From the IMG/VR virus record IMGVR_UViG_3300042914_003282, positions 1 through 25,292 of that record: DNA of 25,292 nucleotides; one strand, 5' to 3'. A program made the translations under genes and the position numbers. How positions within the stretch are numbered: position 1 is the first letter of the stretch; each line of letters begins with the position of its first letter. A model generated the notes under the pieces. The model ran no database searches. It was not told the DNA's origin and saw nothing but the letters and a program-made list of their open reading frames with translations. The DNA is from a virus. Shown one piece after another: positions 1,689-23,935 of the stretch.

Positions 1689-3346
1689 TATTGCCCCGCT
1701 ATGCGTACAGATAACTGGGATTGTGCTATATAGTAAGCATTTATGGATAATACTGGTAAGGTGGGTGTGATACTAAAAACTACAGGGTCTGTAGGAATAG
1801 AGGTTCTGGGAATACTAAGTGTGCCCCTTACTTCCTGCCACCTCTGGAAGTCACCTCTGAGGGTTAATCCTTCCTGCCCATAATCGCAAAATGCATTAGG
1901 GGTACGGTTATAGGCCAATGCCCAGCTAATCGTTCTGGTTAAATTGCAGTAACCACTAACAGAACCAGAATCTAGCGGTACAGGTATTATGTCGTACCGT
2001 ACTATATTCTGAACAATCGCTACCCCTGTAGCCCAATTACGAATATCTGCAGTAATAAGGCAGTCCACTATTTGTGCTGCTACGTGAGAAACGACGCATA
2101 TACTTAGGCAGTATTCCAGAATAACAGTATCACTGGGTATCTGGAACGGTGGTAAGCTATTCAGGCTTAAAAGGGCATACTGCGTAGTGCCAGTACCCGT
2201 TTCTGATAATGCCCAGCTGTAAGGCTTGTAGCTTCCTGCCAGAGGGTAAGGAATAGGGCTTGCGGGGCGTGTAACCTCTCCCCCTATACTGACCATAGGG
2301 CAGACCGCTCTACGCGCGGATTCGGCTAAATTTGCCGCTTGTCGGTACTGTAGAGCGCTGGGCAATTGCCACCACCGTAACCCAGCCCCGTCGTTATCCT
2401 CTAACTGCCATACCTGGGAACCATCCACCATAAGGGAGTCCAGATTGATTACGTCCAGACTCTGCCGAAAAGCTACTATCGGGTAAGACGTTGCATAAAG
2501 TGCCGAAAATGAGGCCTCTACATTTGTCTGTAATATCGGTCCTATTTGCTCTAACTCATTTCTGAATGGCTCCCATAGGAAATACATACCATCCAGAAGG
2601 GTAGGATTTTTTGCTGGGTTTTCCAGAACTAAAGGGCAGGTATAGGTTGCAGTATATCCAGACGTTCTACCACCGGGATTTACTGATAAAATAATGGCAA
2701 ATGGGGGTACGGATTCGTTTACTACATTTGCCGTCAAAATGGACGGGTGACTGGAAGCAAACGGGGTATTCTGGCTGGTTACTTCTGCAATAAAGGGTTG
2801 ATAATTAACAGTATCGATAACGGCCGATAAATCAGTTTGCTCGCCATATAGGCCACATTTCCAGCCTAACCAGATTTTATTCCAGCCTGGTGTAATAGGT
2901 ACTTCCAGAGTAACAGACCAGTCGGCGGTACTTATGTCGGCCCATTGTGTTCCTGAGCCTAAAATATCGTGGTCCATTTCTGGTTCGGTAGGCGCTCTCA
3001 GTGATTCATTTATTACATATACATAGGTACTAGTTAAACCCGTTGCTCTACCAGTAAGCAATAGCCGTACAAATGGGGTTGCCCTTGCCTGATTCTTCTG
3101 CCCTACAGGGGCGGGGCAAAAATAGTGAATAGGTCCATGATAAGCCCAGTTAGCGGTAATGATTACTCTGGTACTTAATGCTGCCCCGTCCGACCCTACT
3201 AGGCGTTCTGAATACCCTACGTGCCCACATCGTTCATTATAGATAGCCAGCGCATTACGGATTAACCTACGTCCATGCTCTGCAGTTAATGCGCGGTCGG
3301 TATCGAATGCGGTTTCATCTGTTTCCAGAAATACTGGGGTAGTCAT
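1688..3346 (-). CDS. Large tail-tip/virion structural protein, family not recognised
   Basis: The gene encodes 552 residues starting MTTPVFLETDETAFDTDRAL. A GAGG ribosome-binding site lies just upstream of the ATG and overlaps the end of the hub gene. An N-terminal helical segment (about 18-40, LTAEHGRRLIRNALAIYNER) precedes long beta-rich stretches, including 'TLEVPITPGWNKIWLGWKC' near 145-165. There is no signal peptide, transmembrane helix or catalytic motif I can identify. Its place directly after the hub and before two small proteins and the fibre fits a tip, central-fibre or baseplate-peripheral protein. It could also be a receptor-binding protein in its own right; nothing in the sequence separates these options. 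Confidence 0.72.
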   Translation of the reverse strand: MTTPVFLETDETAFDTDRALTAEHGRRLIRNALAIYNERCGHVGYSERLVGSDGAALSTRVIITANWAYHGPIHYFCPAPVGQKNQARATPFVRLLLTGRATGLTSTYVYVINESLRAPTEPEMDHDILGSGTQWADISTADWSVTLEVPITPGWNKIWLGWKCGLYGEQTDLSAVIDTVNYQPFIAEVTSQNTPFASSHPSILTANVVNESVPPFAIILSVNPGGRTSGYTATYTCPLVLENPAKNPTLLDGMYFLWEPFRNELEQIGPILQTNVEASFSALYATSYPIVAFRQSLDVINLDSLMVDGSQVWQLEDNDGAGLRWWQLPSALQYRQAANLAESARRAVCPMVSIGGEVTRPASPIPYPLAGSYKPYSWALSETGTGTTQYALLSLNSLPPFQIPSDTVILEYCLSICVVSHVAAQIVDCLITADIRNWATGVAIVQNIVRYDIIPVPLDSGSVSGYCNLTRTISWALAYNRTPNAFCDYGQEGLTLRGDFQRWQEVRGTLSIPRTSIPTDPVVFSITPTLPVLSINAYYIAQSQLSVRIAGQ

Positions 3347-3352
3347 AATGCC

Positions 3353-5950
3353 TCAGAGGTTGTACTTATCTCGGCCCATAAAGGCATAGAATTCGTCTAC
3401 ATCATTTTCCCCTAATTCTGCCAGCAATACGAAATCACCAGCTACCGGTAAGTAGGCTGCCCCGTAATTAGTGGTAAGGGTATTTGTCGCAATATCATAC
3501 CCTATAACCTGTTCTGCATTAGCAGGCCCTGGGTTTCTATCTGCCAGCGTTTCGTCGTAAAACCTTACAAATTCGTAATCCCCAGAGGTGGTAGCAAATG
3601 CAGAAAGGGTTTCACCATCTTCGGTAATATCGCCAAAAGGCGAAGTATTATAGGGCACCGGTATAACTTCAAAATCAGGCTCTAAAACGATATCCATCGT
3701 CCCGTCCAGATTATCGGTAGCGCTTACCACTCTGCCAGCTGGGGCAATACGAATCAGGTTCCCTAAATCTAAAACTCTGATTTGCTGGGTAGCGCAATTA
3801 TCCTGCCACTGGTGTTCCAGTACCGCACCTAATCTAGGCCCTGCTAATTTACGTAATCCCGGTATATCTGCCGCTATAGTAACATAGGTTCCAGGGAGCG
3901 CATATCTGGAAGGCATAGCAGGGGCTAGCGTATTACCGTTTGGCTTAAATAATTGTTCTTCGTCTGGAAACCCTGAGGGAATACGAAACGTGTACTGTAT
4001 TGCCCCTGCCCTTAAATACGTACCAATTGTGCTAGTCATAGAGCGCATAAACATAATGGGTATAATATCCAGTAACGAAACGTTCTGCATTTCGTTGTCT
4101 GGCGACATAGTACCCATAGCATCAATTACGAACGTGGTATTTTCTGGGTCGCCGTCTGCTACCTTATAGGCATCGATAGATTGAATGGTTAGCCTAGGCT
4201 CTTTACCTAGCCCTTGCCCTGTAATGGACTGCGTTACCCCTGCCTCTACCTCTACGATACGCTGGACCTGCCTACCAGGCGCTAAAACTGAAACGTCGAT
4301 AGAATTACTGGCAGAAGTACCGTCGAACACCTTAGGCACTCCCCAGGGGCTAGAGCGTAGCATGGTAATAGGGGCAACGGATAAGCGGCCGAATTCATCC
4401 GTTACGAATCCGCAACCCAGAGGCTGTAGGAAGGTCTTAGCTAGCCATTCCATCGCCTTTACAGGGCCGGTTACGCATACCCCAGGCCATTCATTTACTA
4501 CCAATTGCTGGGCATATTGCAGAATTGCTGCCTTAGCTACCGCCTGAGTGTCTAGCCTTAATTGCCAGTGATAAGGCAGGTTGCTATTTAACTGCCCTAA
4601 ATGGGCTAGCATCAAATGCAACGGGTGCTGCAGGATACCTGCCCCGCCTGGTTTATCGGTACTGTAATAAGGGTGTGAAGTAGGCGTAAGGGGGTATAAT
4701 GCTTCGTTTCCAGACGTATCCAGTATGATTTCCAGAGGGTCGGAAATTAGTACCTCTTTTACCTTCTGCCCCGTTTCTCTGGAAATGAATCGTGATAATT
4801 CCGATTCTAATTCGTCGGATAATAGGTTTATGGACGTAAACGGTTTTAGTCCTAAACTGCGAGTGGTACGCAAAGCGCGGTAAAATGTGGAACTATTTAC
4901 AATAGCTGTAAATACGAATTCGGATGCGACAAATAAACCCGCTTCTGTACCGTTGCTGTAGCATACCGTACCATCTTTCCAGATTCGACGGTCTAGGCTT
5001 CCAGGGGTATAATCTAAATCAATAAGGGCAACGTTACCGCCTGAGGGTCCATTATATAACTGCAGCCTATCGTTTACACCTAATGCCCCTAATTGTGCCT
5101 TTTCATAACTAGCCACAAGGGAGCCAGCAGTAACGGTAACCGTAGTACCGTCTGAGTTTACTGTTACGTCACGAATTAGGTACTGGCCAAATAATTGTTC
5201 CCTGTAACCCTCAATTCCTGCCTCATTCAAACCCCACGAAACCCGTCGTAAATAAACCCTGCGTCCCTTAACTCTGGGGTTTGCCAGATATACACGGGTA
5301 TCAGGTAGCGGTGGTAATTCATTAGTCTGGGGTACTGCATGAATAGCAATTCTGCTACCGAATGCACCTATTACCCCTACTGCCCCTACAGCTGCCCTTG
5401 TACCTACATTTAAGCTTATCCCATTAGGCCACGTAATATCCGGCCCATTAGTGCTACTGCCTCCGATAATTGATTGATTTACGGTAATAAGCGTAGCGCT
5501 ATTTACTACCGATACCCTGAAACACTCTGCCCCGATATAAATAATATCCCCAGCCGTAAGGGCTGCAGTAGTATCCATCGCTATAGTGTTATCAGTAGGG
5601 TCTATCTGAAAAGTGATATTCGCTACAGGTGTCGGATTACTGAGAAAATACCGTTCAATTTCTGGAAGTGCATCCGGTAAAGCAATATCAAAACTAAGGC
5701 TTTGTGCGCCTGGTTTCTGGGCAAATGGGGAATAAGACATAGCCGATAGCTTGACAGAATCAGGCTGAATTACGGGTTGCCATTCGTCGCAAATGCGAGA
5801 GGTTGCAAATCCACCTGCATAGGCTGCATTAGTAGGCCAGCTTTGCGTAGTAAGCGCCATAGGGGTTATTGAAAACTGGTTATTTGCAGTAAGGTTATCC
5901 CTGCCTAAACCCTCTATTTCAATTAACCAAATCCATGAACCTCTGGTCAT
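3353..5950 (-). CDS. Tail hub / central tip-like protein
   Basis: This 865-residue protein starts MTRGSWIWLIEIEGLG. I prefer this ATG (5950), which forms an ATGA overlap with the upstream stop and has TAGGTG in front, over an upstream ATG at 5980 inside the previous gene. The N-terminal part (1-120) is beta-rich and refers to whole-segment motifs such as 'SLSFDIALPDALPEIERYFLS'. The middle (about 430-560) contains a helical section 'PLHLMLAHLGQLNSNLPYHW' and 'DEFGRLSVAPITML', the pattern seen in hub proteins that form the ring at the tail end. The C-terminus (from about 690) has 'LPGTYVTIAADIPGLR' and 'GRVVSATDNLDGTMDIVLEPDF', reminiscent of the OB/insertion domains of tail hubs. Length and order after the Dit-position gene support a hub. 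The exact family is not certain. Confidence 0.7.
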   Translation of the reverse strand: MTRGSWIWLIEIEGLGRDNLTANNQFSITPMALTTQSWPTNAAYAGGFATSRICDEWQPVIQPDSVKLSAMSYSPFAQKPGAQSLSFDIALPDALPEIERYFLSNPTPVANITFQIDPTDNTIAMDTTAALTAGDIIYIGAECFRVSVVNSATLITVNQSIIGGSSTNGPDITWPNGISLNVGTRAAVGAVGVIGAFGSRIAIHAVPQTNELPPLPDTRVYLANPRVKGRRVYLRRVSWGLNEAGIEGYREQLFGQYLIRDVTVNSDGTTVTVTAGSLVASYEKAQLGALGVNDRLQLYNGPSGGNVALIDLDYTPGSLDRRIWKDGTVCYSNGTEAGLFVASEFVFTAIVNSSTFYRALRTTRSLGLKPFTSINLLSDELESELSRFISRETGQKVKEVLISDPLEIILDTSGNEALYPLTPTSHPYYSTDKPGGAGILQHPLHLMLAHLGQLNSNLPYHWQLRLDTQAVAKAAILQYAQQLVVNEWPGVCVTGPVKAMEWLAKTFLQPLGCGFVTDEFGRLSVAPITMLRSSPWGVPKVFDGTSASNSIDVSVLAPGRQVQRIVEVEAGVTQSITGQGLGKEPRLTIQSIDAYKVADGDPENTTFVIDAMGTMSPDNEMQNVSLLDIIPIMFMRSMTSTIGTYLRAGAIQYTFRIPSGFPDEEQLFKPNGNTLAPAMPSRYALPGTYVTIAADIPGLRKLAGPRLGAVLEHQWQDNCATQQIRVLDLGNLIRIAPAGRVVSATDNLDGTMDIVLEPDFEVIPVPYNTSPFGDITEDGETLSAFATTSGDYEFVRFYDETLADRNPGPANAEQVIGYDIATNTLTTNYGAAYLPVAGDFVLLAELGENDVDEFYAFMGRDKYNL

Positions 5951-12738: not shown

Positions 12739-13755
12739 TTACTGCGTAATCGTATCCCAGAGTACGCCGAGCGTATCATCGTACACACTTTCCGACGTAG
12801 CGTGCTGGCCACGATAATAAATGGCCTGCTCATCAGTCTTTTCGTATGTATCAATGGTAAGCTCCAGCATACTGTAACCCTTACCCCAGGCACGACGACG
12901 CAGACCATCACCGGAATTACCCTGAATGGTCGGCTGGCTACGTACAAGCGCGGTCTTATTTGAAACAATATAGGCAGGGGAAGTATTCTGCCCGATATTA
13001 TCCGTAGCTGCCGTTGCCTTAGCAATACGGATTTCAAACGACGCCTGCATTTCAGGCGGATAACCTGCCATAACCGTATTCTTAATAAGGTTAAGCACGT
13101 CTGCAGGCGTAGCAGGTGCGCTTGCATCACCGAAACGGGCACGAACCTTTGCGTTATTCACGAAGGCATTAAAATCACCCTGACTAAACATAAGTCGATA
13201 ATTCTGGCCATTTTCCAGAGTACCACCGTTCTGTTCAATCTGAATAACCGCTTCCTGAATTTGTGCTACAGGGTCGACGCTATCATCGGTCCAGTAACCA
13301 TCACTAGAACCGGTATAGGTCTGCCCGAAATTACCACTAACCAACAAACCAGCGGCACGGCGCTCGCGGTCGTTCAATAGGGTATTTACCAGAAATGGGG
13401 TAGCTACATCTTCTTCCCAATTACTGATACCAAATCGGTCCATGGTCTGCAGCTGGGCAGTCATAATAGGCGTAGCAACCTGATAAACAGGAGCATCCAC
13501 GTCATAATCTTCCAGCGTTGAAAACACCCGCTGGGGTTCTGCGAATTCAACCGCACGCAAATCCACCGTACCAGGGGATTGACGATTCTGATTCTTACGA
13601 ACCCGAAAAGCCTTTCCGCGATAGGTCATTTCGCCTGGCTTAATTGCTGCCCCTGGTACCGGAGTACGGGGAAACAGAAATTCGGCAATAAAAAGAGAAG
13701 GTTCCGTAAATGCAGCGCGAGCCGCAATCTGTAGAGTAGGGGATGCAATAGCCAT
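12739..13755 (-). CDS. Major capsid protein
   Basis: The gene encodes 338 residues starting MAIASPTLQIAARAAFTEPS, after a strong TAGGAGG. Size, position between the decoration and connector genes and features of an HK97-type fold support the call: an N-terminal arm, 'PIMTAQLQTMDRFGISNWEEDVATPFLVNTLLNDRERRAAGLL' as the spine helix, 'DPVAQIQEAVIQIEQNGG....NYRLMFSQGDFNAFVNN' as the P-domain, and a C-terminal beta segment with 'GYSMLELTIDTYEKTDEQAIYYRG'. The gene uses codons in a more biased way than the tail genes, as expected for a highly expressed protein. There is no obvious N-terminal delta domain, consistent with a separate scaffold made by the protease gene. Confidence 0.88.
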   Translation of the reverse strand: MAIASPTLQIAARAAFTEPSLFIAEFLFPRTPVPGAAIKPGEMTYRGKAFRVRKNQNRQSPGTVDLRAVEFAEPQRVFSTLEDYDVDAPVYQVATPIMTAQLQTMDRFGISNWEEDVATPFLVNTLLNDRERRAAGLLVSGNFGQTYTGSSDGYWTDDSVDPVAQIQEAVIQIEQNGGTLENGQNYRLMFSQGDFNAFVNNAKVRARFGDASAPATPADVLNLIKNTVMAGYPPEMQASFEIRIAKATAATDNIGQNTSPAYIVSNKTALVRSQPTIQGNSGDGLRRRAWGKGYSMLELTIDTYEKTDEQAIYYRGQHATSESVYDDTLGVLWDTITQ

Positions 13756-14175: not shown

Positions 14176-14769
14176 TTACACCTCACTAATAAGGCCCTTT
14201 TGACGGGCGTCTGCAATACGGGACTTGGCAATTTTGAGGTGTTCCGCATAGGAATACCCCTTGCCACGGGAAATCAATTCGCGCTCTACAGTAGCCATAA
14301 TATCGGCTTCTGTAAGGGTATTAACGTTACCCTTCTCACGAGGGGTAGAACCAGTAACCCCCTGCATTACAGAGGCAAGGGACCAATCACGAAGCAGGGT
14401 TTCTACCTTATCACCAACCTTACGACGTGCCACGTAATCCGATACATGACCTGCCAGCAATCGACCAGAACGGACCAATTCCTTAACTTCGTCGCCAATT
14501 ACGGATTCTTCGATAGCGCGCGCCTGGGCGACAATATCGACCGATTCTGGCAATGCCTCAGAAATTGCCTCTGGAAGGGTAACAGAAGCCATTTCGCGCT
14601 TCATATAACCACGGGATTCCAGCATCGAATCCAAATCGGATTCCATCATTTCACGGCACATTTTGCGCATTTTCTCACGTGCCACCTCAGTATCCATCAA
14701 CGCTTCTACAAGCGCTGGGGTTACCTTTTCAGGCGACAATTCAAATTCGACCTTTTCTTCGTTTTCCAT
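14176..14769 (-). CDS. Probable nested scaffold protein from an internal in-frame start
   Basis: An internal ATG at 14769-14767 (MENEEKVEFELSPEKVTPAL) has CGGAG eight bases upstream and starts exactly where the protease domain ends. The product would be 197 residues, highly charged and helical. In Mu the scaffold Z is made in the same way from inside gene I. The codons downstream of this start look more biased (ACC, GAA, CGT) than those of the protease half, as for the capsid gene, which fits separate high-level translation. No experiment supports it here. Confidence 0.62.
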   Translation of the reverse strand: MENEEKVEFELSPEKVTPALVEALMDTEVAREKMRKMCREMMESDLDSMLESRGYMKREMASVTLPEAISEALPESVDIVAQARAIEESVIGDEVKELVRSGRLLAGHVSDYVARRKVGDKVETLLRDWSLASVMQGVTGSTPREKGNVNTLTEADIMATVERELISRGKGYSYAEHLKIAKSRIADARQKGLISEV

Positions 14770-15414
14770 TGGCAAACTCCGATATTGCGCTCCCCGTGAT
14801 ATTACGGGGTTTTCTGTGGAAAGGTTATACCATACTGCAGGAATCGACCTTGCAACGCTTGTAGCGCTACGGGTACCAGAATATTTAATATAGTCAAATG
14901 GTAGGAAATCAGAAGCCGTACCAATACTTTCCAGAAATGGTACATCTACTAAAGAAACCTCTACCAGAAAATCACCTGGTATTTTTCGGCCTGTAGATAA
15001 AATACCATAACTGGAATTTGTAGGGCTAAGGCAATTGAATTTACCCGATTCGATTAACTCAATTCCCTCTAACGTCCATTCGATTAGCGCCCATACCCCA
15101 GAGGGAATATCACTACCCTTAGGGATATAAGCAAGGTCGTAGATAGAACCAACCCTACGCCTTTCCTCTGGGGTTCCAGTACCGTGTATCCCTACGTGCT
15201 GGATTTGTACCGGTAGAGGCTGGGCAGGCATTCCATAGGCTTCTGAGGCACGCTGGAATTCCCTAAACCGCTCTACAATACCCTGGCACCATTTAGGGGA
15301 ATACGTGGTAACAGTAATATCCCCATTTGGCCGAGGATATTCCTCCCGTAAACCTTCTGGGAAAATAAACTGCCAGCGGGCACGTTCTGCATCTATGGTG
15401 CCGGTTTGCATCAT
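14176..15414 (-). CDS. Prohead protease fused to scaffold (Mu I-like)
   Basis: The gene encodes 412 residues starting MMQTGTIDAERARWQFIFPE, with an ATGA overlap to the preceding gene. The N-terminal half (about 1-205) matches the Mu I-like protease: 'LPVQIQHVGIHGTGTPEERRRVGSIYDLAYIP' carries the likely catalytic His, 'GVWALIEWTLEGIELIESGKFNCLSP' the likely nucleophile Ser in the conserved LSP, and 'FLVEVSLVDVPFLES' the final strand. The C-terminal half (from about 217) is charged and helical (MENEEKVEFELSPEKV...REKMRKMCREMMESDLDSML...), as expected of a scaffold. The protease cleaves scaffold and possibly itself during prohead maturation. Catalytic residues are inferred from family patterns. 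Confidence 0.85.
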   Translation of the reverse strand: MMQTGTIDAERARWQFIFPEGLREEYPRPNGDITVTTYSPKWCQGIVERFREFQRASEAYGMPAQPLPVQIQHVGIHGTGTPEERRRVGSIYDLAYIPKGSDIPSGVWALIEWTLEGIELIESGKFNCLSPTNSSYGILSTGRKIPGDFLVEVSLVDVPFLESIGTASDFLPFDYIKYSGTRSATSVARSIPAVWYNLSTENPVISRGAQYRSLPMENEEKVEFELSPEKVTPALVEALMDTEVAREKMRKMCREMMESDLDSMLESRGYMKREMASVTLPEAISEALPESVDIVAQARAIEESVIGDEVKELVRSGRLLAGHVSDYVARRKVGDKVETLLRDWSLASVMQGVTGSTPREKGNVNTLTEADIMATVERELISRGKGYSYAEHLKIAKSRIADARQKGLISEV

Positions 15415-16205
15415 CCCAGTTTAACCACGTCAAAAGTAGCCGAACCAGTCTTAATGTTACGCAATACAGCCGTTTGACTCTGAGCAATGGTAATTGCCCC
15501 GATAAGGGTAACACCTGAACCACCATTAAGGGTAATGGTTTCGGCCGCATCTGCAGTATTCTTAATGGTTACATCAAAGAAACCACCGACTGGCAAATAT
15601 GCGGTAGCGGCTCCCAAATTTACCCCTGTAGGGGTAATATCCGTTACAGCGGTACCATTCGGATCGCGCGCAATATAACCGCCCACATATTGAGTTGTAG
15701 AATAGGTTTGTGCGCCTCCGGTGGTCAATACAGAACCCCTTACTGGTACAACACCAGGCGGTGCATAGGGGTTTACCGCTGTAATAATCACCGTAGTAGA
15801 GGAATTACGATTTACCGTAATCAGGCGAAAATCACCGGTCGGAATAATAAAATCACCCTGCAATGTCGAATTAGCACCGGCTGCAAGGGTAAGTGTATTT
15901 CCGCCGGAAACCTGAATACCAAACGTAATAGTATCCTGATTCTGAGGAAGGGTATAAACGTTAGCAATACCCGAAATAATATCTGCAGCGCTGGGCAGGG
16001 TATCGGTTCGATTGCCTGCGCTAACGTCACGAAGAATAATACCCCGCGCAATCTGGGCAGCGGTATAAGTAGCATTTGCCCCGCTTACTGTAGCAGGGGT
16101 ATTCAGTGAATCAATCCGCCGAGTAAGACGGGGCAGAACGGACGTTCCAGTAACGACAAAACCGCTAAGGAACGAACCTGATACCTTTTCTACTTTCTCG
16201 CCCAT
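15411..16205 (-). CDS. Virion protein with two diverged beta repeats, possible decoration protein
   Basis: This 264-residue protein starts MGEKVEKVSGSFLSGFVVTG, after AGAGGT. Two segments of about 97 residues align: 46-143 (ATYTAAQIARGIILRD...FGIQVSGGNTLTLAAG...VIITAV) and 167-262 (TYSTTQYVGGYIARD...FDVTIKNTADAAETITLNGG...FDVV). Each starts with a Tyr-Thr...Gly-Ile/Tyr-Ile...Arg-Asp strand and ends with a Thr-rich hairpin followed by 'I...T.A....N...S'. It lies between the portal fusion and the protease, where head accessory proteins are found. A head decoration or fibre-like protein is the best guess. I do not recognise the family. Confidence 0.72.
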   Translation of the reverse strand: MGEKVEKVSGSFLSGFVVTGTSVLPRLTRRIDSLNTPATVSGANATYTAAQIARGIILRDVSAGNRTDTLPSAADIISGIANVYTLPQNQDTITFGIQVSGGNTLTLAAGANSTLQGDFIIPTGDFRLITVNRNSSTTVIITAVNPYAPPGVVPVRGSVLTTGGAQTYSTTQYVGGYIARDPNGTAVTDITPTGVNLGAATAYLPVGGFFDVTIKNTADAAETITLNGGSGVTLIGAITIAQSQTAVLRNIKTGSATFDVVKLG

Positions 16206-16277: not shown

Positions 16278-19200
16278 TTATGATTCCCTGTCAAGTGCAA
16301 TAATAGTAACATTATCCATGCTGCTATCTGGTAGCTGGTAGGAATCAATCAAGTGCATCAATTGCTCTACTGGAATGGAACCCCGTGGTTCTGATTTACG
16401 GGATTCATTTACTGCCATAATCGTTTCTGCAGGAATATCAAATGCAGTAACCATTACCTCTACTTCGTTATCCAGAGCGGTCGTTACATAAGCAATAACG
16501 TTCTGCCTTGCCTGCTCACTCAGTAAGCAAGCTACGAAATGTACCGTATCGCCAGGAAGTGCGCTCTGCAGCGTATCGGTTAGGGCTTCCAGTGATTCAA
16601 CCCTGCCAGAGTATTGATAGGTATTTTCGGTATCCTCTCCGAATACGTAATTATCCCTATCGATAACAATACCGTCCTGTAAGGCTGCCCAGGTAGATTT
16701 ACCTGCCCCCGGTAAGCCTACCACTAGGTTTAGTTTAGCTTTAGGCTTTACCGCTTGCCTTACCACTAAACCACCGCCTGAGGTAACATTAATGGGACCA
16801 GGGCCGATTCCCATTTCTGCATATTCATATACCCAGACACACTGGCAGAGGTTTCTTAGGCCACCGGAATTAGTAACCGACTTACATCTAGGGTTAGGTG
16901 GTGTCATTTGTCGGTATTTTTCGGTACCGTAATCCACTTCGGTACCGTCTGCCTTTGCACATACGATACAGGTAAGCCGGTCCATTACGGCAGAATATAC
17001 AGCCTTTTCAATTTTCGGCCCTTGCTCTGAGGCTGTAACCGCTCTGGTTTCGTTGACAGTGGTAGAGGCAGCTTGCTCTAGCAGGCCACTACCCGTGTTC
17101 CCTACTGAGAGCGTAGCAGCCGCTAGAACGCTCAATTTTGCCCCATTAGCCGCTTGCAGGGCAGCGCCCCTTAGCTGTTCATTAACCCTATCGTTGACAG
17201 CCCTAGAAGCCAGCATAGCGGCCGCCTCTACCTGAGAGGCAGAACCGGTGGTTTTGTCACTGGTAGCAACCCAAGTGTTACTACCTATCTGGGCTGCTAT
17301 TTCTTCCAGCATATCTGCATTACTGAATTCAGATAGGCTACGTAGAGAGGGCAGGATTGCTTGCCTGTATTGCTCTGTCCAGTCGATATTAAGGTTAGCA
17401 ATGCCTGCAACGTCCCTGTTATTGATATAGGGGGTTGCAGTATTCGTCCACTGGGTACGGTGTAGCTTTTGTTGCGCCTCTATTGCCTTAGTCATTTGTT
17501 CAACGGCAGAGGTTTTTTCTGTAGCGATACGGTCAAATGCTACCGACTGTTCTACTGGGGTAAGGTTTCGCCACGTCTTAAATACCCCTGTTCTGGTTTT
17601 GACTTCAAAAAGCTGCCTTGCTCTGGAAGTAGTAGTATTACAGCTACCACATTCGCAATCTGATTTATGCCTTCCGAATCCAGAAATGCCACGGGAAGTA
17701 TTACTATTTTCGTCGGCTGCATTCATTTGCTTAACTAGCTTAGCCGACCATGCCTGCCCCGCATCACCTCCCCATAATTGCCAAGCCTGCCAGCCCTTGC
17801 CCAGATTATTCCAGGTAGAACCCTGCTTATCGATTTCATGCCTATCAAAATAGGCTTTCATGCGTCTGGCAGTATCTGGGGAGATTTTCTTACCGTTCGA
17901 TAAATCCCTTGCTCTGGCAATGCCTACAGGCGTTCCGCCCCGCTGGCTAGGTGGTTTGCTAGCCCTTACCTCTAACCCCCTTGCTGCAGCCTCTCTGACA
18001 CCCTTAGGCGGGGTAAAATCAATATGTTCGTACTTGACTGCCCTTGTAGCTGGTTCCTCTAACTCAGGTTCAATATCACTAATAACTGGCTTTTCTGAAA
18101 GGGCAGTATCTAACCACTCTGCCATTTCCAGACCGCCGAAACAGTGGAATTCCTGCCACGAAGGTCCATGATCTTCCCAGTCTGGGGAATTAGTAACATT
18201 CCCAGAGCCTACAAAATACGCCTCTATCATGCGTAAATCCAGCTGGGATAGAGGTTCACCACCTGCTATTTTCTTTACCAGTACACTATCGGCAATAGAA
18301 GGCTGCCAGCGTTCATCTGTAGAGGCATTACGCTTCCTACGTAAACCGACCGCTGCATTACGCCTAGCCTCAGGCGGGGCAATTAAACCGGTAGATTCTG
18401 CCCTAGCCGTTTCATCTATATTTGTCTGGGTAGCATCAAATTCAGTATTACCAATACCCGCATCCATATCAGAAGGGGTTTCACCGTCTGCCACGGGGGC
18501 AGTTTGTGTATCGTCTAATTCCCCTTCCTTACCTCTACCATGCCAGATAACTTCTGCCTTTTCGGCAATTTCCACTAACTCTCTATCGGTATATTGCCCC
18601 GATTGAACCAGTGTACCAAATGAGGTTTGCAGGTTTAGTACCTCAGTACCAGAACGGGTAGCGAAACCAGTAACCCTAAGCGTAGGGTAAATAGGCAAGC
18701 CAGGGAAAAATAGGTCACAATAAACCCGAATCAGGTTAGACCATGCCCTTTCTATTTGTCTGGCAAATACCCCTAAACCCTTTAGCCACATCTGGCTTTT
18801 CACGTCCCCTAAATTATATGCGCCTGCACTCTCTGTACCCAGTCCAGAAATGGCATCACGAATAGCGCTACGCTTATATTTAGCGCACATATCAATAATG
18901 CCTTCCAGCCCCGTATTCATCTGCATTTGCAGTAATTCTACGTCTATTCCGTCGCCTAATTCCAGTACTGCGTCTGCCAGATTTGCGTATTTACTGAGGG
19001 CTGCAAATGCCGCACCACTAGCGGCCGCCGAATTAGGGGCAGCGCTATTACGACGCAATACGGGCACGCCTGGGCCGAACCTCTGCCAGTGTAGAATAGA
19101 AGCGCTGGTTACTTCCATCGATAGCAAATCCCATTGCCTAGCCGAGCGTACCAACGATAACCCTTCAAAATTATCCCCGTCTTTATCGATACTAAGTAGT

Positions 19201-20171
19201 ACTGTTTTCCTTATATCCAGAAATGGGGCTAATCCAGAACGGTAAATACTACCATTTGGGTTCGTTTGCTGGACGCCTACCAATTCCCCAGATAGTCCAT
19301 CAAATACCCACCTCATTACTGTATTCGGTAATCTGGGGGATAAACCAGTAATACGCTTACCGATAGGGGCATGGGGATTAATGGCGAATTCATAAAGGCC
19401 GAAACCATTAATAATGCCAGAGCGTAACATCTGCTCAAATGCATCATCAAAATCCACTGCCCCGAAATGCAAATCTACGTTAATTGCCTCTGCCACCATA
19501 TCCAGCAAATCGCGATTAACCCCCAGTAATTCGGCCTGCCTTTCCGTTAGGCTAGGTGCTTGCACTTCAATTGTAGCACCTGCCATTACGCTAACCAGAT
19601 TCGCTACGCCTTCCCTGATTACAGAATCAGAACGATAGGCAGCCATAAACTGCCCCTGGTCATAACTTAGACCTCTGCCCCGATAAGGGTAAAGGTCTGA
19701 GTTTAATTCTACCGCTGGGGTACCGCCTGCCCACGGGGTACCAGTAACCCCCGTTAATTGATTCCATTCAAATGGAATAGGCTGGATACCGTCTGAGGTA
19801 GAAACAGGGGAAACAGAGGCGCGGGTAAATAATTCCTTTTCTCTGGATTCCTGAGAAACGTGCCGACCGTCTGGACGGATTAGGTTTAGTACCGAATCGC
19901 TGGAATCCTTACGGTAAATGCTTTCCAGCAAATCCGTTCTGCCCAGTTGTTCTGCCACCTGCCTACGTGCCTTAATCAATTCATCGGCTGGGGTTTTCAC
20001 CTGGGCATTTCTACGTGCCTTATCGGCATTATAGGTAGCTGCCTTAGCGGTACGCCATACCTTCTGTAATTCAGTGGATACCTCATTAGGGTTTACCGGC
20101 CTGCCTAATGACTGTTCCAGAAAATCCAGAATTTCTCGACCTGCTACTAATGAAAAGGCACGATTCGACAT
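16278..20171 (-). CDS. Portal / MuF / P-loop kinase-like fusion protein
   Basis: This 1297-residue protein starts MSNRAFSLVAGREILDFLEQ. After a helical N-terminal extension (1-150), residues about 155-560 match DUF935-type portals (SDSVIREGVANLVSVMAGA, FEQMLRSGIINGFGLYEFAI, RWVFDGLSGELVGVQQ, NFEGLSLVRSARQWDLLS, RFGPGVPVLRR). At 640-691 and 763-815 lie two related modules (RMIEAYF...SWQEFHCFGG and RRMKAYFDRHE...WQAWQLWGGDAGQAW), the second preceded by PPKGVREAA...RARDLSNG. A CECGSC cluster is at 839-844. Residues about 868-1118 are MuF-like, with Cys1068-x2-Cys1071, Cys1096, Cys1109 and Cys1111. The last 150 residues carry a Walker A GLPGAGKST (1152-1160), IDRDNY (1170-1175) and a lid-like NESRKSEPRGSIP, as in AAA_33/polynucleotide-kinase folds. 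The usual Asp-x-Thr-Asn after the fourth strand is not visible. The portal docks terminase, and MuF is a minor head protein that can be ejected. Confidence 0.88.
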   Translation of the reverse strand: MSNRAFSLVAGREILDFLEQSLGRPVNPNEVSTELQKVWRTAKAATYNADKARRNAQVKTPADELIKARRQVAEQLGRTDLLESIYRKDSSDSVLNLIRPDGRHVSQESREKELFTRASVSPVSTSDGIQPIPFEWNQLTGVTGTPWAGGTPAVELNSDLYPYRGRGLSYDQGQFMAAYRSDSVIREGVANLVSVMAGATIEVQAPSLTERQAELLGVNRDLLDMVAEAINVDLHFGAVDFDDAFEQMLRSGIINGFGLYEFAINPHAPIGKRITGLSPRLPNTVMRWVFDGLSGELVGVQQTNPNGSIYRSGLAPFLDIRKTVLLSIDKDGDNFEGLSLVRSARQWDLLSMEVTSASILHWQRFGPGVPVLRRNSAAPNSAAASGAAFAALSKYANLADAVLELGDGIDVELLQMQMNTGLEGIIDMCAKYKRSAIRDAISGLGTESAGAYNLGDVKSQMWLKGLGVFARQIERAWSNLIRVYCDLFFPGLPIYPTLRVTGFATRSGTEVLNLQTSFGTLVQSGQYTDRELVEIAEKAEVIWHGRGKEGELDDTQTAPVADGETPSDMDAGIGNTEFDATQTNIDETARAESTGLIAPPEARRNAAVGLRRKRNASTDERWQPSIADSVLVKKIAGGEPLSQLDLRMIEAYFVGSGNVTNSPDWEDHGPSWQEFHCFGGLEMAEWLDTALSEKPVISDIEPELEEPATRAVKYEHIDFTPPKGVREAAARGLEVRASKPPSQRGGTPVGIARARDLSNGKKISPDTARRMKAYFDRHEIDKQGSTWNNLGKGWQAWQLWGGDAGQAWSAKLVKQMNAADENSNTSRGISGFGRHKSDCECGSCNTTTSRARQLFEVKTRTGVFKTWRNLTPVEQSVAFDRIATEKTSAVEQMTKAIEAQQKLHRTQWTNTATPYINNRDVAGIANLNIDWTEQYRQAILPSLRSLSEFSNADMLEEIAAQIGSNTWVATSDKTTGSASQVEAAAMLASRAVNDRVNEQLRGAALQAANGAKLSVLAAATLSVGNTGSGLLEQAASTTVNETRAVTASEQGPKIEKAVYSAVMDRLTCIVCAKADGTEVDYGTEKYRQMTPPNPRCKSVTNSGGLRNLCQCVWVYEYAEMGIGPGPINVTSGGGLVVRQAVKPKAKLNLVVGLPGAGKSTWAALQDGIVIDRDNYVFGEDTENTYQYSGRVESLEALTDTLQSALPGDTVHFVACLLSEQARQNVIAYVTTALDNEVEVMVTAFDIPAETIMAVNESRKSEPRGSIPVEQLMHLIDSYQLPDSSMDNVTIIALDRES

Positions 20172-20233: not shown

Positions 20234-21883
20234 TTATCTGCGTTGCAATTGCTCTCTGCCCCGTCCGTTATTGCCTTCAATAGCCGAGCGGGTTTTCTGT
20301 ATATGGTCATAACTACTAATATTCTGACCATGTACTGCAACGGTGGTATAAGTACCAGAAACCGAATCTGCAAAGGCTAGTACTAATGCGTCTGCCCTAT
20401 CTGGGGAAGCTACTCCCCTGCGCCTGAGGGAGTCTTTACTTTCCACCTTAAGTAATCCCCGCTCATTAGTCTGTATTTTTGGCATACATAACTGGGAAAT
20501 TAACTTAGCGTCATTCGGAATACTGATACAATCGTCTAAATCAATCTGTTCCCCTTGCAGATACCGATACGAATTCCAGAAACGTAAACGCAAATTCCAC
20601 CATAACTCTGCCTTTAGGTTAGCGAATCTGGAACGTGCCTGCCTATCGGTTGCATCTGCATAGCAGGTGTTCGTAGCTGGCATACCAGTATTTACCCCGA
20701 CTGGGGCAAATCGTAAATCAGACCTGGAACCAAAGGCACCGGTTACGCCTGCCCCTACGCCTATGTTGTCAAAGCGTACAGCGCTCACATTTGCCCCTCT
20801 AGCGCGCTCTGCCACGATACCCGCACTAGCTACAGGGTCACGCCCTCGCCAAGCTTCTAGGGCTATTACAGACGGTCCCTTACGAATGACCAGAACCGAC
20901 TCATTATCCCCAGAGTCGGCTACGTCAAACCCTGCTACAATAGTGCTATTCTTACCCGTAGGGAATTCCAGACCGATAGCAGCCCTTATCCAGTCGTTAG
21001 GGATAATCACGTCATTAGCCCCGCCTGAGTAATCAATATCGACCTCTCTAGCGGTAATCATCGGGCCATTCATTCTGAGGTAATTATCTCGCCATTCTGG
21101 GGATTTTCTAGGGTCGTCCTGCCAGCTAATTCTAAAATGGGGGATATTGTCATCGTGTACCAGTTTATAGAATTCGGTATCTGGACCGGTAGCAGTAGAA
21201 GCAAATAGTACTGTTTTAGAGTTATCGGCTACTGCAGCCCTTACTTGCCCTGCCCTTGGCATAACCCCGAATTCATCCAGAAAATAAAACGATGAACGGC
21301 CGCCACGTCCCATTTCTGGACCTGCCTCCCCAGTAATACTGCTACGCATTTCTGGGTTAATCAGACGTGCATAATTACGGTGGGTTTTCATTTCAAACCC
21401 TACTGGCCTTAACCAGTCGGGTAGCATTCGGATAATGTATTCCAGCTTCCAGAATATTGATTTTGGGTCGTTTAGCTTATCCAGCAAATCTGCCTTACGG
21501 GAACCTATAGCGCCTGCCCAGCCTGGTACAGTTAACCAGCGCCATACGTAATAGGCTGCTACTAACCACGTAACCCCTACGTCACGCGATTTATCCACTA
21601 CCCCATTATCTGGGGTTTCCTCTAATACCTTTACCCAGTCCAGAAATTCGGCCTGCTTAGGCCAGAGAATTAGTGGTAAATCTTTTGGTGTGGTTCCTTT
21701 ATTTCTGGGGTCGTAGGTCCAGACGAAATCACTAACAAAAAGCTGCAACCCAGAACCGTGGTTTGCCAATGCCCTTTTAGTGATATTTCTGGAACGTTCA
21801 TCGGTAAGCTTACCAGCAAGGTAAACCCTTCTACGGATTTCACTACTAATTGCGCCTGCCCATTTTTGTTCGTTGTCATTCAT
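20234..21883 (-). CDS. terL: Terminase large subunit
   Basis: This 549-residue protein starts MNDNEQKWAGAISSEIRRRV. It packages DNA: the N-terminal ATPase drives translocation and the C-terminal nuclease cuts concatemers. The adenine/Q motif region is at 65-80 (LPLILWPKQAEFLDWV). The Walker A-like motif is KSRDVGVTW at 98-106, the variant form seen in many Mu-like and T4-like terminases. Walker B FYFLDE is at 199-204, followed by the coupling motif 'TVLFASTATGP'. The RNase H-like nuclease carries Asp320 (GFDVADSGD), Asp372 (RFDNIGVGAG) and Asp498 (DRADALVLAF). All key residues appear intact. The start overlaps the small-subunit stop by eight bases (ATGAATGA), indicating coupled translation. 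Confidence 0.95.
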   Translation of the reverse strand: MNDNEQKWAGAISSEIRRRVYLAGKLTDERSRNITKRALANHGSGLQLFVSDFVWTYDPRNKGTTPKDLPLILWPKQAEFLDWVKVLEETPDNGVVDKSRDVGVTWLVAAYYVWRWLTVPGWAGAIGSRKADLLDKLNDPKSIFWKLEYIIRMLPDWLRPVGFEMKTHRNYARLINPEMRSSITGEAGPEMGRGGRSSFYFLDEFGVMPRAGQVRAAVADNSKTVLFASTATGPDTEFYKLVHDDNIPHFRISWQDDPRKSPEWRDNYLRMNGPMITAREVDIDYSGGANDVIIPNDWIRAAIGLEFPTGKNSTIVAGFDVADSGDNESVLVIRKGPSVIALEAWRGRDPVASAGIVAERARGANVSAVRFDNIGVGAGVTGAFGSRSDLRFAPVGVNTGMPATNTCYADATDRQARSRFANLKAELWWNLRLRFWNSYRYLQGEQIDLDDCISIPNDAKLISQLCMPKIQTNERGLLKVESKDSLRRRGVASPDRADALVLAFADSVSGTYTTVAVHGQNISSYDHIQKTRSAIEGNNGRGREQLQRR

Positions 21884-22535
21884 CGTAATCCGGTAATTCG
21901 GTTATTTCAATTTCCGTACTGCTATTATCCCCAGAGGTAGAGGGGATTACGGATGAGGTTAAACGTCGATATTCAGAAACCAATTCGGAATCACTAAGGG
22001 CAGAGGCTTTATCTGCTAACTGTAGGTATTCAGATTTACCACCATTCACTAGCGTTACCTGGGCACGCTGCTCTGGCATATCCGCATATTCCTCTCTCAG
22101 GTTACGGTTTACCACGTCGATAAGCCTAGCCATTTCCCCAGCGCTGGCTTTATCGAAATCGAACCTCTGTAGGGTTTCACCTATGCGCCGCTGGGCAGTG
22201 ATTAGAACCGCCCTACGTAGCTTCCTGGCCTTAAGGCGTTCGTCTGTTTCGGCCTGCCAGCTAAGGCGCTCTATATGCGTATCAAACGCCTGGGCACGTT
22301 CCTTCCAGTTATGAACGGCTGCTAACTGGTAGAACCAGCTACCCGCACTCCCTACGTCAACCTTACCGGTATAACGTCGAAAGGCTACCACGATGTTACG
22401 TTCTACTGCAGCAAGGTCACGATAAACGCAGAAGGCAGCATACTGCTTTTCTGTTTCACCATCGAGGCGTTCCCATAAATAAGCCCCCTCTTTTAGCCTT
22501 CCTGCCTGTATTGAGTATTCAAGTTTTTTTGCCAT
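21876..22535 (-). CDS. terS: Terminase small subunit
   Basis: This 219-residue protein starts MAKKLEYSIQAGRLKEGAYL. 'YLWERLDGETEKQYAAFCVYRDLAAVERNIVVAFRRYTG' followed by 'VGSAGSWFYQLAAVHNWKERAQAFD' is the helix-turn-helix pattern of a class of small terminases that read 'WE.L.GES.KAYaAF..Yrdlg..RSl..va'. It continues with a long helix (about 95-145) likely for oligomerisation, and an acidic Ser-rich tail (ITELPDYDE) that may contact the large subunit. It lies directly upstream of terL. No ribosome-binding site is visible before the ATG (the preceding bases are pyrimidine-rich), so initiation may be inefficient or depend on the A-rich start of the coding region. Confidence 0.85.
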   Translation of the reverse strand: MAKKLEYSIQAGRLKEGAYLWERLDGETEKQYAAFCVYRDLAAVERNIVVAFRRYTGKVDVGSAGSWFYQLAAVHNWKERAQAFDTHIERLSWQAETDERLKARKLRRAVLITAQRRIGETLQRFDFDKASAGEMARLIDVVNRNLREEYADMPEQRAQVTLVNGGKSEYLQLADKASALSDSELVSEYRRLTSSVIPSTSGDNSSTEIEITELPDYDE

Positions 22536-22707: not shown

Positions 22708-23922
22708 TTAGGGTTTTGTGGTTTGCGTAGTGGTATTTACAGATTCGGCTAAATCATCGAAAGTAACCCCGTCCTCTCTAATAGCCTTATTACCGGTAAG
22801 GGTTTGCCAGCGCCTAATAACTAGGTCGCAGTAAATAGGACTAATTTCTATACCGTAGCAAATTCTACCTAATTGCTCTGCCGCAATGAGAGTAGTACCA
22901 GAACCTAGGAATGGGTCTAAAATGACGCCTTCTGTCATTTCAATGCACCATGCCATAACGGCAGCTGGTTTCTGCGTAGGGTGATTAAACCTTTCCTCTC
23001 TACCTGCTATGGCAAACCCGTTCCATAAATGGCGCTTTATTCGGACTGCCTTATCCAGATTTGTCCAGGCTAATTCACAATCTGCGAAATCGGTAGTGCC
23101 GTTTTCTTTATCCCAGACTAGCCAGCAACGGGAAGGCGGTAAATCGAAGTAATTACCTCCGAAAATAATCGATTGCCTGTAGGCTGTGAGTTTATCGATA
23201 AAATCCTTAGGCGGTAGCTTATCCCAGTCTGTTTCTGCATAATGCTTTTTAGGGGCTAATCCGTTTTTGGACTGAATTCCTCCGCTTTTATGCATAACCT
23301 TATCAACCCCTATTCCATAAGGTGGGTCGGTTACACAAACATCGATATTTTCCCCGCATGCAATTCTGGCAATAGTATCTGTATTGGTACAGTCGCCACA
23401 TAATACCTTATGCGCGCCTAAATGCCAGATTTCGCCACTGGAAGTAATGGCTACCGATTCAACCTCTGGGGTTTCATCTTCGATAATATCGGACTGGTTA
23501 TCGAATAGGTCGCCTTCCTGATTAATAATCCGGTCGATTTCCTCTGAGTCGAACCCCAGTGATTCCAGATTGAAACCATCGATATTCAATTCAGTCAATT
23601 CCAGGGCTAGCATCGATTCATCCCAGCCGGAATTAAGGGCAATACGGTTATCTGCCAGAATATAAGCACGCCTCTGGGTTTCCGATAAATGGCTTAGCCT
23701 AAGGCAAGGTACCTCTGCCAAGCCTAATACCCTTGCTGCCATTACTCGACCATGCCCAGCAATAATGCCATTATCGGAATCAATTAGGACAGGGTTAGTA
23801 AACCCGAATTCCTTTATGCTCCCTGCTATCTGGGAAACCTGTTCGTCGGAGTGTGTTCTAGCATTACGTGCATAGGGGATTAGCTTATCGGTACGGATTA
23901 TTTCTATTTTAGGGGATACCAT
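22708..23922 (-). CDS. ParB-domain / DNA methyltransferase (beta-class N4/N6)
   Basis: I prefer the ATG at 23922 (MVSPKIEIIRTDKLIPYARN, 404 residues), preceded by GGAAAGG, over a GTG two codons earlier. The N-terminal domain (1-110) is ParB-like: 'IPYARNARTHSDEQVSQIAGSIKEFGFTNPVLID' and GHGRVMAARVLGL with the GHGR motif at 56-59. The second domain is a beta-class methyltransferase: catalytic TDPPYGIG (DPPY at 199-202, motif IV), HPTQKP (314-319) and the SAM-binding LDPFLGSGTT (335-344, motif I), in the order IV then I. It transfers methyl from S-adenosylmethionine to adenine or cytosine amino groups. No restriction nuclease is next to it, so it is probably a solitary phage methyltransferase protecting DNA or acting in gene control. 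Its target cannot be read from the sequence. Confidence 0.92.
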   Translation of the reverse strand: MVSPKIEIIRTDKLIPYARNARTHSDEQVSQIAGSIKEFGFTNPVLIDSDNGIIAGHGRVMAARVLGLAEVPCLRLSHLSETQRRAYILADNRIALNSGWDESMLALELTELNIDGFNLESLGFDSEEIDRIINQEGDLFDNQSDIIEDETPEVESVAITSSGEIWHLGAHKVLCGDCTNTDTIARIACGENIDVCVTDPPYGIGVDKVMHKSGGIQSKNGLAPKKHYAETDWDKLPPKDFIDKLTAYRQSIIFGGNYFDLPPSRCWLVWDKENGTTDFADCELAWTNLDKAVRIKRHLWNGFAIAGREERFNHPTQKPAAVMAWCIEMTEGVILDPFLGSGTTLIAAEQLGRICYGIEISPIYCDLVIRRWQTLTGNKAIREDGVTFDDLAESVNTTTQTTKP

Positions 23923-23935
23923 TACCACCTTTCCA

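Follow-up and report, generated by a model that had tools for sequence, protein, structure and literature searches.

Enzymes carried in the head are a known route by which phages act ahead of their own gene expression, and the described precedents are linked to either MuF or portal proteins. In the parts of Iyer 2017 (PMC5512222) considered here, MuF proteins and portals are found fused to PBECR, 2H phosphoesterase, RelA/SpoT and zeta-toxin-like kinase domains, portal-MuF-PBECR fusions being among these precedents. Fusions of MuF or portal to ART and Nudix domains have also been reported (PMC9503650). Moreover, a MuF C-terminal domain has been shown biochemically to make (p)ppApp, and the Apk2 MuF toxins have their immunity genes next in line (PMC12226406).

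The locus described here lies in the virus record IMGVR_UViG_3300042914_003282, whose 25,292 nucleotides were analysed as a whole and are called the window in the following. A single ORF of the minus strand (16278..20171, read from 20171 to 16278), with no internal stop, encodes a protein of 1297 aa made up of an N-terminal extension, a portal, a degenerate copy of a domain X (X'), domain X itself, a MuF region and a kinase-like domain. The initial annotation of this DNA had claimed that a single chain combines a portal with MuF and a P-loop kinase fold, and the uninterrupted frame, together with the sequence and structure matches given below, bears this out.

Portal, domain X and MuF region

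The Mu-type portal domain (Portal_Mu/DUF935-like; residues 109-560, 18492..19847, minus strand) was recognised through a PHROG_113 portal match (E 1.6e-5, residues 109-603) and through a 720-aa protein from IMG/VR (L013), which matches Portal_Mu with an E of 1e-45, carries MuF at its end and aligns by BLASTP with the portal of the fusion over ~460 aa (E 2e-13). The fusion protein itself gives no direct match to Pfam Portal_Mu (PF06074, the former DUF935), so that the DUF935-type portal of the initial annotation stands by way of PHROG_113 and L013, and not by its own Pfam family. A family profile including L013 and another distant relative, L016, matches solved portals (best E 2e-26), and a profile built from the close relatives alone matches none of them, which indicates that the link to solved portals runs through these two intermediates. 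As for the gene neighbourhood, the large terminase gene (20234-21883, minus strand) lies directly upstream of the fusion gene and is preceded by the small terminase gene (21876-22535, minus strand), whereas the downstream side holds a scaffold-like gene (15411-16205), a 412-aa gene without family assignment (14176-15414) and the gene of the major head protein (PHROG; 12739-13755), followed by tail genes. Since the fusion protein is encoded beside the terminase, and no other scanned product of the head module matched a portal family, homology and gene context together indicate that it is the portal of this phage, of the Mu type.

Between portal and MuF lies domain X (phrog_2859, E 2e-18; residues 709-828, 17688..18047, minus strand), preceded by a degenerate first copy (X'; residues ~630-690, 18102..18284, minus strand) that was recognised by comparison with domain X and by a secondary BLASTP match (E 0.009) that links this stretch to domain X in the locus L020. 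Neither copy figured in the initial annotation. Domain X recurs in the head-gene products of many phages, where it follows portals of three Pfam families, namely Phage_portal (L020), Phage_portal_2 (L021, L024) and Portal_Mu (L025, L026), lies beside a protease domain in L022, and stands at the start of the protease-capsid protein of Roseobacter phage CRP-831. To judge from these matches, it looks like a shuffled head-module domain. In the L019-L028 set, domain X also adjoins ChaB and a phage serine protease domain, and in CRP-831 (L027, 2935-5907) one ORF combines domain X, a DUF5824-like stretch, an S78 prohead protease and a major capsid domain.

The MuF region (residues 855-1120, 16812..17609, minus strand) consists of long helices followed by a Cys core. 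Its match to Pfam Phage_Mu_F (PF04233, E 6e-4) falls below the cut-off; the core residues C1068, C1071, C1096, C1109 and C1111 are invariant in five aligned proteins, and a search with this region of the fusion retrieves the MuF ends of L013 and L016. These observations agree with the MuF-like, Cys-containing domain proposed previously. A first AlphaFold2 (AF2) model of MuF and kinase together was poor (overall pLDDT of 52), and the MuF fold was accordingly not deduced from it.

Relatives and evolution of the fusion

The complete fusion is also encoded by two other metagenome contigs (L002 and L008), while in two more (L003 and L006) the same fusion is cut by the contig end, which falls inside the kinase; these are portal-MuF-kinase fusions of the kind that the initial annotation had advised searching for. 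The four contigs are independent of each other, show 69-83% identity and keep an identical domain order, with the Walker A motif and Asp1173 of the kinase-like domain present in all of them. Since independent contigs share an open frame across the MuF-kinase joint, this joint is neither due to chance nor to assembly, and the portal-X-MuF-kinase-fold fusion is real and conserved.

Searched on its own as a single sequence, the kinase yielded no relatives among viral contigs, a profile search with the MuF-kinase part of the fusion, run with no positive control, gave no matches in 71 genomes, and a plasmid search gave none either. A scan for kinases with the motif PG[AS]GK[ST]TW found at least 71 viral loci, including L030, which lies on the same contig as L002. 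Among the matches listed, none of the 70 other ORFs looks like a MuF fusion, a CxxC motif is absent from 69 of the 70 (the last one, an ORF of 306 aa, has a single CxxC), and almost all are stand-alone proteins of ~150-310 aa.

The kinase is under purifying selection, with dN/dS values of 0.13-0.24, as compared to 0.03-0.06 for the portal and 0.02-0.04 for the MuF core. The kinase values derive from two near pairs with partial kinases (0.13 and 0.24; 41 and 60 codons) and from the L008/L002 pair (0.23), synonymous sites being saturated in the comparisons of the window with L008 and with L002. Of the annotated domains, the kinase shows the lowest conservation, the variable linkers diverging equally, and within it the lowest dN/dS is found over the Walker A/Asp stretch. 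Among the distant relatives, L013 and L019 stop soon after MuF, without a kinase, and L016 extends past MuF and gives no AAA_33 match. Because of these relatives without a kinase, the simplest order places portal-MuF first, and the kinase was probably added later to an existing portal-MuF protein.

Several other features accompany these genes. In the window, a protein with ParB N-terminal-like and N6/N4 DNA methylase domains is encoded directly before the terminase genes (22708-23928). Upstream of its fusion gene, L008 (~2469-4874) shows matches to the type IV CRISPR proteins Csf2 (E 3e-8) and Csf3 (E 2e-18), both below the curated cut-off, accompanied by a PAPS-reductase (CysH)-like gene; these genes could possibly represent a type IV CRISPR set that the phage carries within its head module. 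Between the fusion gene and the scaffold-like gene, palindromic TTGTGCCATTTTGGCACAA-type repeats occur in L008 (two, after 9140) and in L002 (one, after 4995), and are absent from this gap in the window.

Fold and active site of the kinase-like domain

The C-terminal domain (residues 1146-1297, 16281..16736, minus strand) matches AAA_33 (E 1e-8, 35.9 bits for a Pfam cut-off of 27) and, by phmmer against PDB sequences, T4 PNK (E 1.2e-4); when the domain was searched in phages by tblastn, the best among the matches listed were T4-like PNKs. An AF2 model, built on an alignment of 53 kinase domains taken exclusively from the window and the loci retrieved here, reached a pLDDT of 92.2 and a pTM of 0.85 and showed a five-stranded P-loop layout. 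Foldseek matched this model to PNK, gluconate kinase and PSTK, and the VIA-align Z values were 16.3 for PSTK, 15.7 for C. thermocellum Pnkp and 14.4 for T4 PNK, values so close that they make the fold group firm, but not the exact substrate class. According to both model and sequence matches, the domain has a polynucleotide-kinase fold. The P-loop nature assumed in the initial annotation is thus upheld by AF2, Foldseek and VIA-align alike, and of the types that it had considered, the PNK-like one is favoured by AAA_33, the T4 PNK match and the structure matches. A zeta toxin, the other type, was rejected as the family of this domain, the match to Zeta_toxin (PF06414) having an E of 0.064 and covering only 31 residues around the P-loop.

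In T4 PNK, Asp35 is the general base, Arg38 and Asp85 serve the acceptor side, where Arg38 holds the acceptor phosphate, and Arg126 serves the donor phosphate. The Walker A motif of the fused domain, GLPGAGKST (residues 1152-1160, 16692..16718, minus strand), is kept in all relatives and invariant except for an A/S exchange at one position, which leaves the reading of this motif in the initial annotation intact. By alignment, the Asp of D1173-N-Y1175 (16647..16655, minus strand), within the IDRDNY motif at residues 1170-1175, is the equivalent of Asp35, and R1258 (16398..16400, minus strand), within the NESRKSEPRGSIP segment at residues 1255-1267, is that of the lid Arg126 (N-x-x-R). An alignment of 67 sequences (3 complete fusions and 64 other viral kinases) was used for a census of the active site, in which the fusion proteins retain the equivalents of T4 Lys15, Ser16, Asp35 and Arg126, and none of the three complete members has those of Arg38 (DxxR) and Asp85 (DxTN). 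The place of Arg38 is occupied by V1176, a V that comes after Tyr/Phe in the fusion proteins. The segment V-A-C-L-L (residues 1213-1217, 16521..16535, minus strand) stands in place of the D-x-T-N element, Ala-Cys-Leu replacing Asp85-Thr-Asn in all three complete members, and an Asp is present in one of two aligned columns in 63 of the 64 other viral kinases examined. The DxTN element, already noticed to be missing from the sequence of the window, is therefore absent from its complete relatives as well. The invariant residues R1190, H1211, C1215 and R1263 are candidates for occupying the site left by Arg38 and Asp85.

As read from these alignments, the domain departs from a canonical PNK in that Arg38 and the Asp of DxTN are replaced, with the ATP-side residues kept, and this pattern suggests that the handling of ATP has been retained and that of the acceptor changed or lost. 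Given that the Walker A Lys/Ser, the base of the Asp35 type and the lid Arg have been preserved, the domain would bind NTP and probably transfer phosphate. Since the equivalents of Arg38 and Asp85 are both replaced, its acceptor would probably be other than the usual 5'-OH polynucleotide end held by these two residues, and the same loss may even mean that there is no catalysis. In any case, the loss of the acceptor-side residues is conserved, which makes the substrate an answerable question.

Possible roles and comparison with known systems

The C-terminal side of portals faces the capsid interior, so that the head interior is the expected place of MuF and the kinase-like domain, with as many as twelve copies of each next to the packaged DNA. 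Portals normally stay with the virion, and thus the fusion could not reach the host uncleaved, whereas a cut chain would make the entry of the kinase possible. A kinase fold within the portal chain itself would then either be cut off and ejected or work inside the head. With regard to release, strong-SD candidates for an internal start that would produce a free MuF-kinase are not shared between homologues, and no protease able to free the kinase domain was recognised among the scanned products of the window. The 412-aa gene (71% identical to its counterpart in L008) sits where a protease or scaffold gene is expected, and its product has no informative match to a known family or phage record, which leaves cleavage unsupported.

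We tentatively favour a portal that would carry an NTP-binding domain inside the head, probably a kinase whose acceptor has changed, as a putative accessory enzyme of the MuF-effector type. By analogy with such effectors, the domain would most likely be a virion-carried enzyme acting on nucleic acid or nucleotide early in infection, and such an early action would require the release of the kinase from the portal. A bolder proposal, which we consider rather unlikely, is that each portal subunit bears a working PNK-fold kinase within the head, giving a virion at most twelve of them, and that the acceptor site has been adapted to a new substrate. The DNA gateway would then itself be an enzyme for the packaged genome end or for host nucleic acid at injection.

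A possible alternative, to which we give less weight than to the accessory enzyme, is a pseudo-kinase that would bind ATP or nucleic acid without phosphate transfer and would plug or scaffold the portal vertex by binding DNA or nucleotides. The loss of the DxTN Asp and DxxR Arg in the complete members and the faster evolution of the domain with respect to portal and MuF core are consistent with it, as are the binding of SPP1 gp7, a MuF protein, to the portal (PMC5576092) and that of MuF proteins to viral DNA (PMC12226406). However, the Walker A motif, the Asp35 equivalent and the lid Arg have all been kept, which is more than a binding scaffold needs, and the dN/dS of the kinase is lowest over the Walker A/Asp stretch.

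A role confined to the producing cell, with no ejection at all, is improbable; in that case the domain would act during assembly or packaging, its targets being for instance the nucleotide pool or DNA ends located at the portal. Being part of the portal, the domain would indeed occur in the infected cell as well as at the vertex used for packaging, and no release signal was found, but portal C-termini should lie within the head and not near the terminase, and the equivalent of T4 Arg38, the holder of the acceptor phosphate, is lost.

A MuF polymorphic toxin that kills by means of a zeta-like or PNK-like domain is highly improbable, even if MuF toxins are built as MuF plus a variable C-terminal domain (PMC5576092; PMC12226406), and zeta-toxin-like kinases occur on MuF in the portions of Iyer 2017 (PMC5512222) taken into account. 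No immunity gene lies directly downstream of the fusion gene in the window, L002 or L008, where there is no room for an immunity ORF in between and the same scaffold-like gene follows after ~70-125 bp. A scaffold-like gene next in line in three contigs, as opposed to the immunity genes after the Apk2 toxins, makes a killing toxin unlikely, and the polymorphic toxin reading was rejected for the lack of an immunity gene. Moreover, the C-terminal domain is the same in all members instead of variable, and the Zeta_toxin match is the marginal one described above. Finally, the reading that separate genes for portal, MuF and kinase were joined by an error of assembly or frame, for which no supporting point was found although all sequences are metagenome contigs, is refuted by the same open frame over the MuF-kinase joint in five independent contigs of 69-83% identity.

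The kinase-like domain and its fusion can be set beside the known systems. The domain resembles the kinase domain of T4 PNK (Pnkp) in its fold, in its Walker A motif (GxPGxGKSTWA), in the equivalents of Asp35 and lid Arg126 and in domain length, and differs from it in the replacement of Arg38 and Asp85-Thr-Asn, in having no phosphatase domain and in being fused to a portal. The archaeal O-phosphoseryl-tRNA(Sec) kinase (PSTK) gives the highest structural Z (16.3), followed by the kinase domain of C. thermocellum Pnkp (15.7), over 142-144 residues and within ~2 of T4 PNK, with a sequence identity of 17-19% to the fusion kinase. The DxxR pair is a feature of both these enzymes and is not kept in the fusion. 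The Apk2 MuF toxins (PMC12226406) are similar in that MuF is followed by a nucleotide-using C-terminal domain, whereas the present fusion has no immunity gene, includes the portal within its chain and is not known to be toxic. The head proteins of Iyer 2017 (PMC5512222) share with it a portal and/or MuF joined to enzyme domains, and in the parts of that work considered here there is no mention of domain X or of a portal-MuF chain with a PNK-type kinase. On the whole, we rate fusions of portal or MuF head proteins to enzyme domains as already known, and the PNK fold on a portal-X-MuF chain as a variant thereof.
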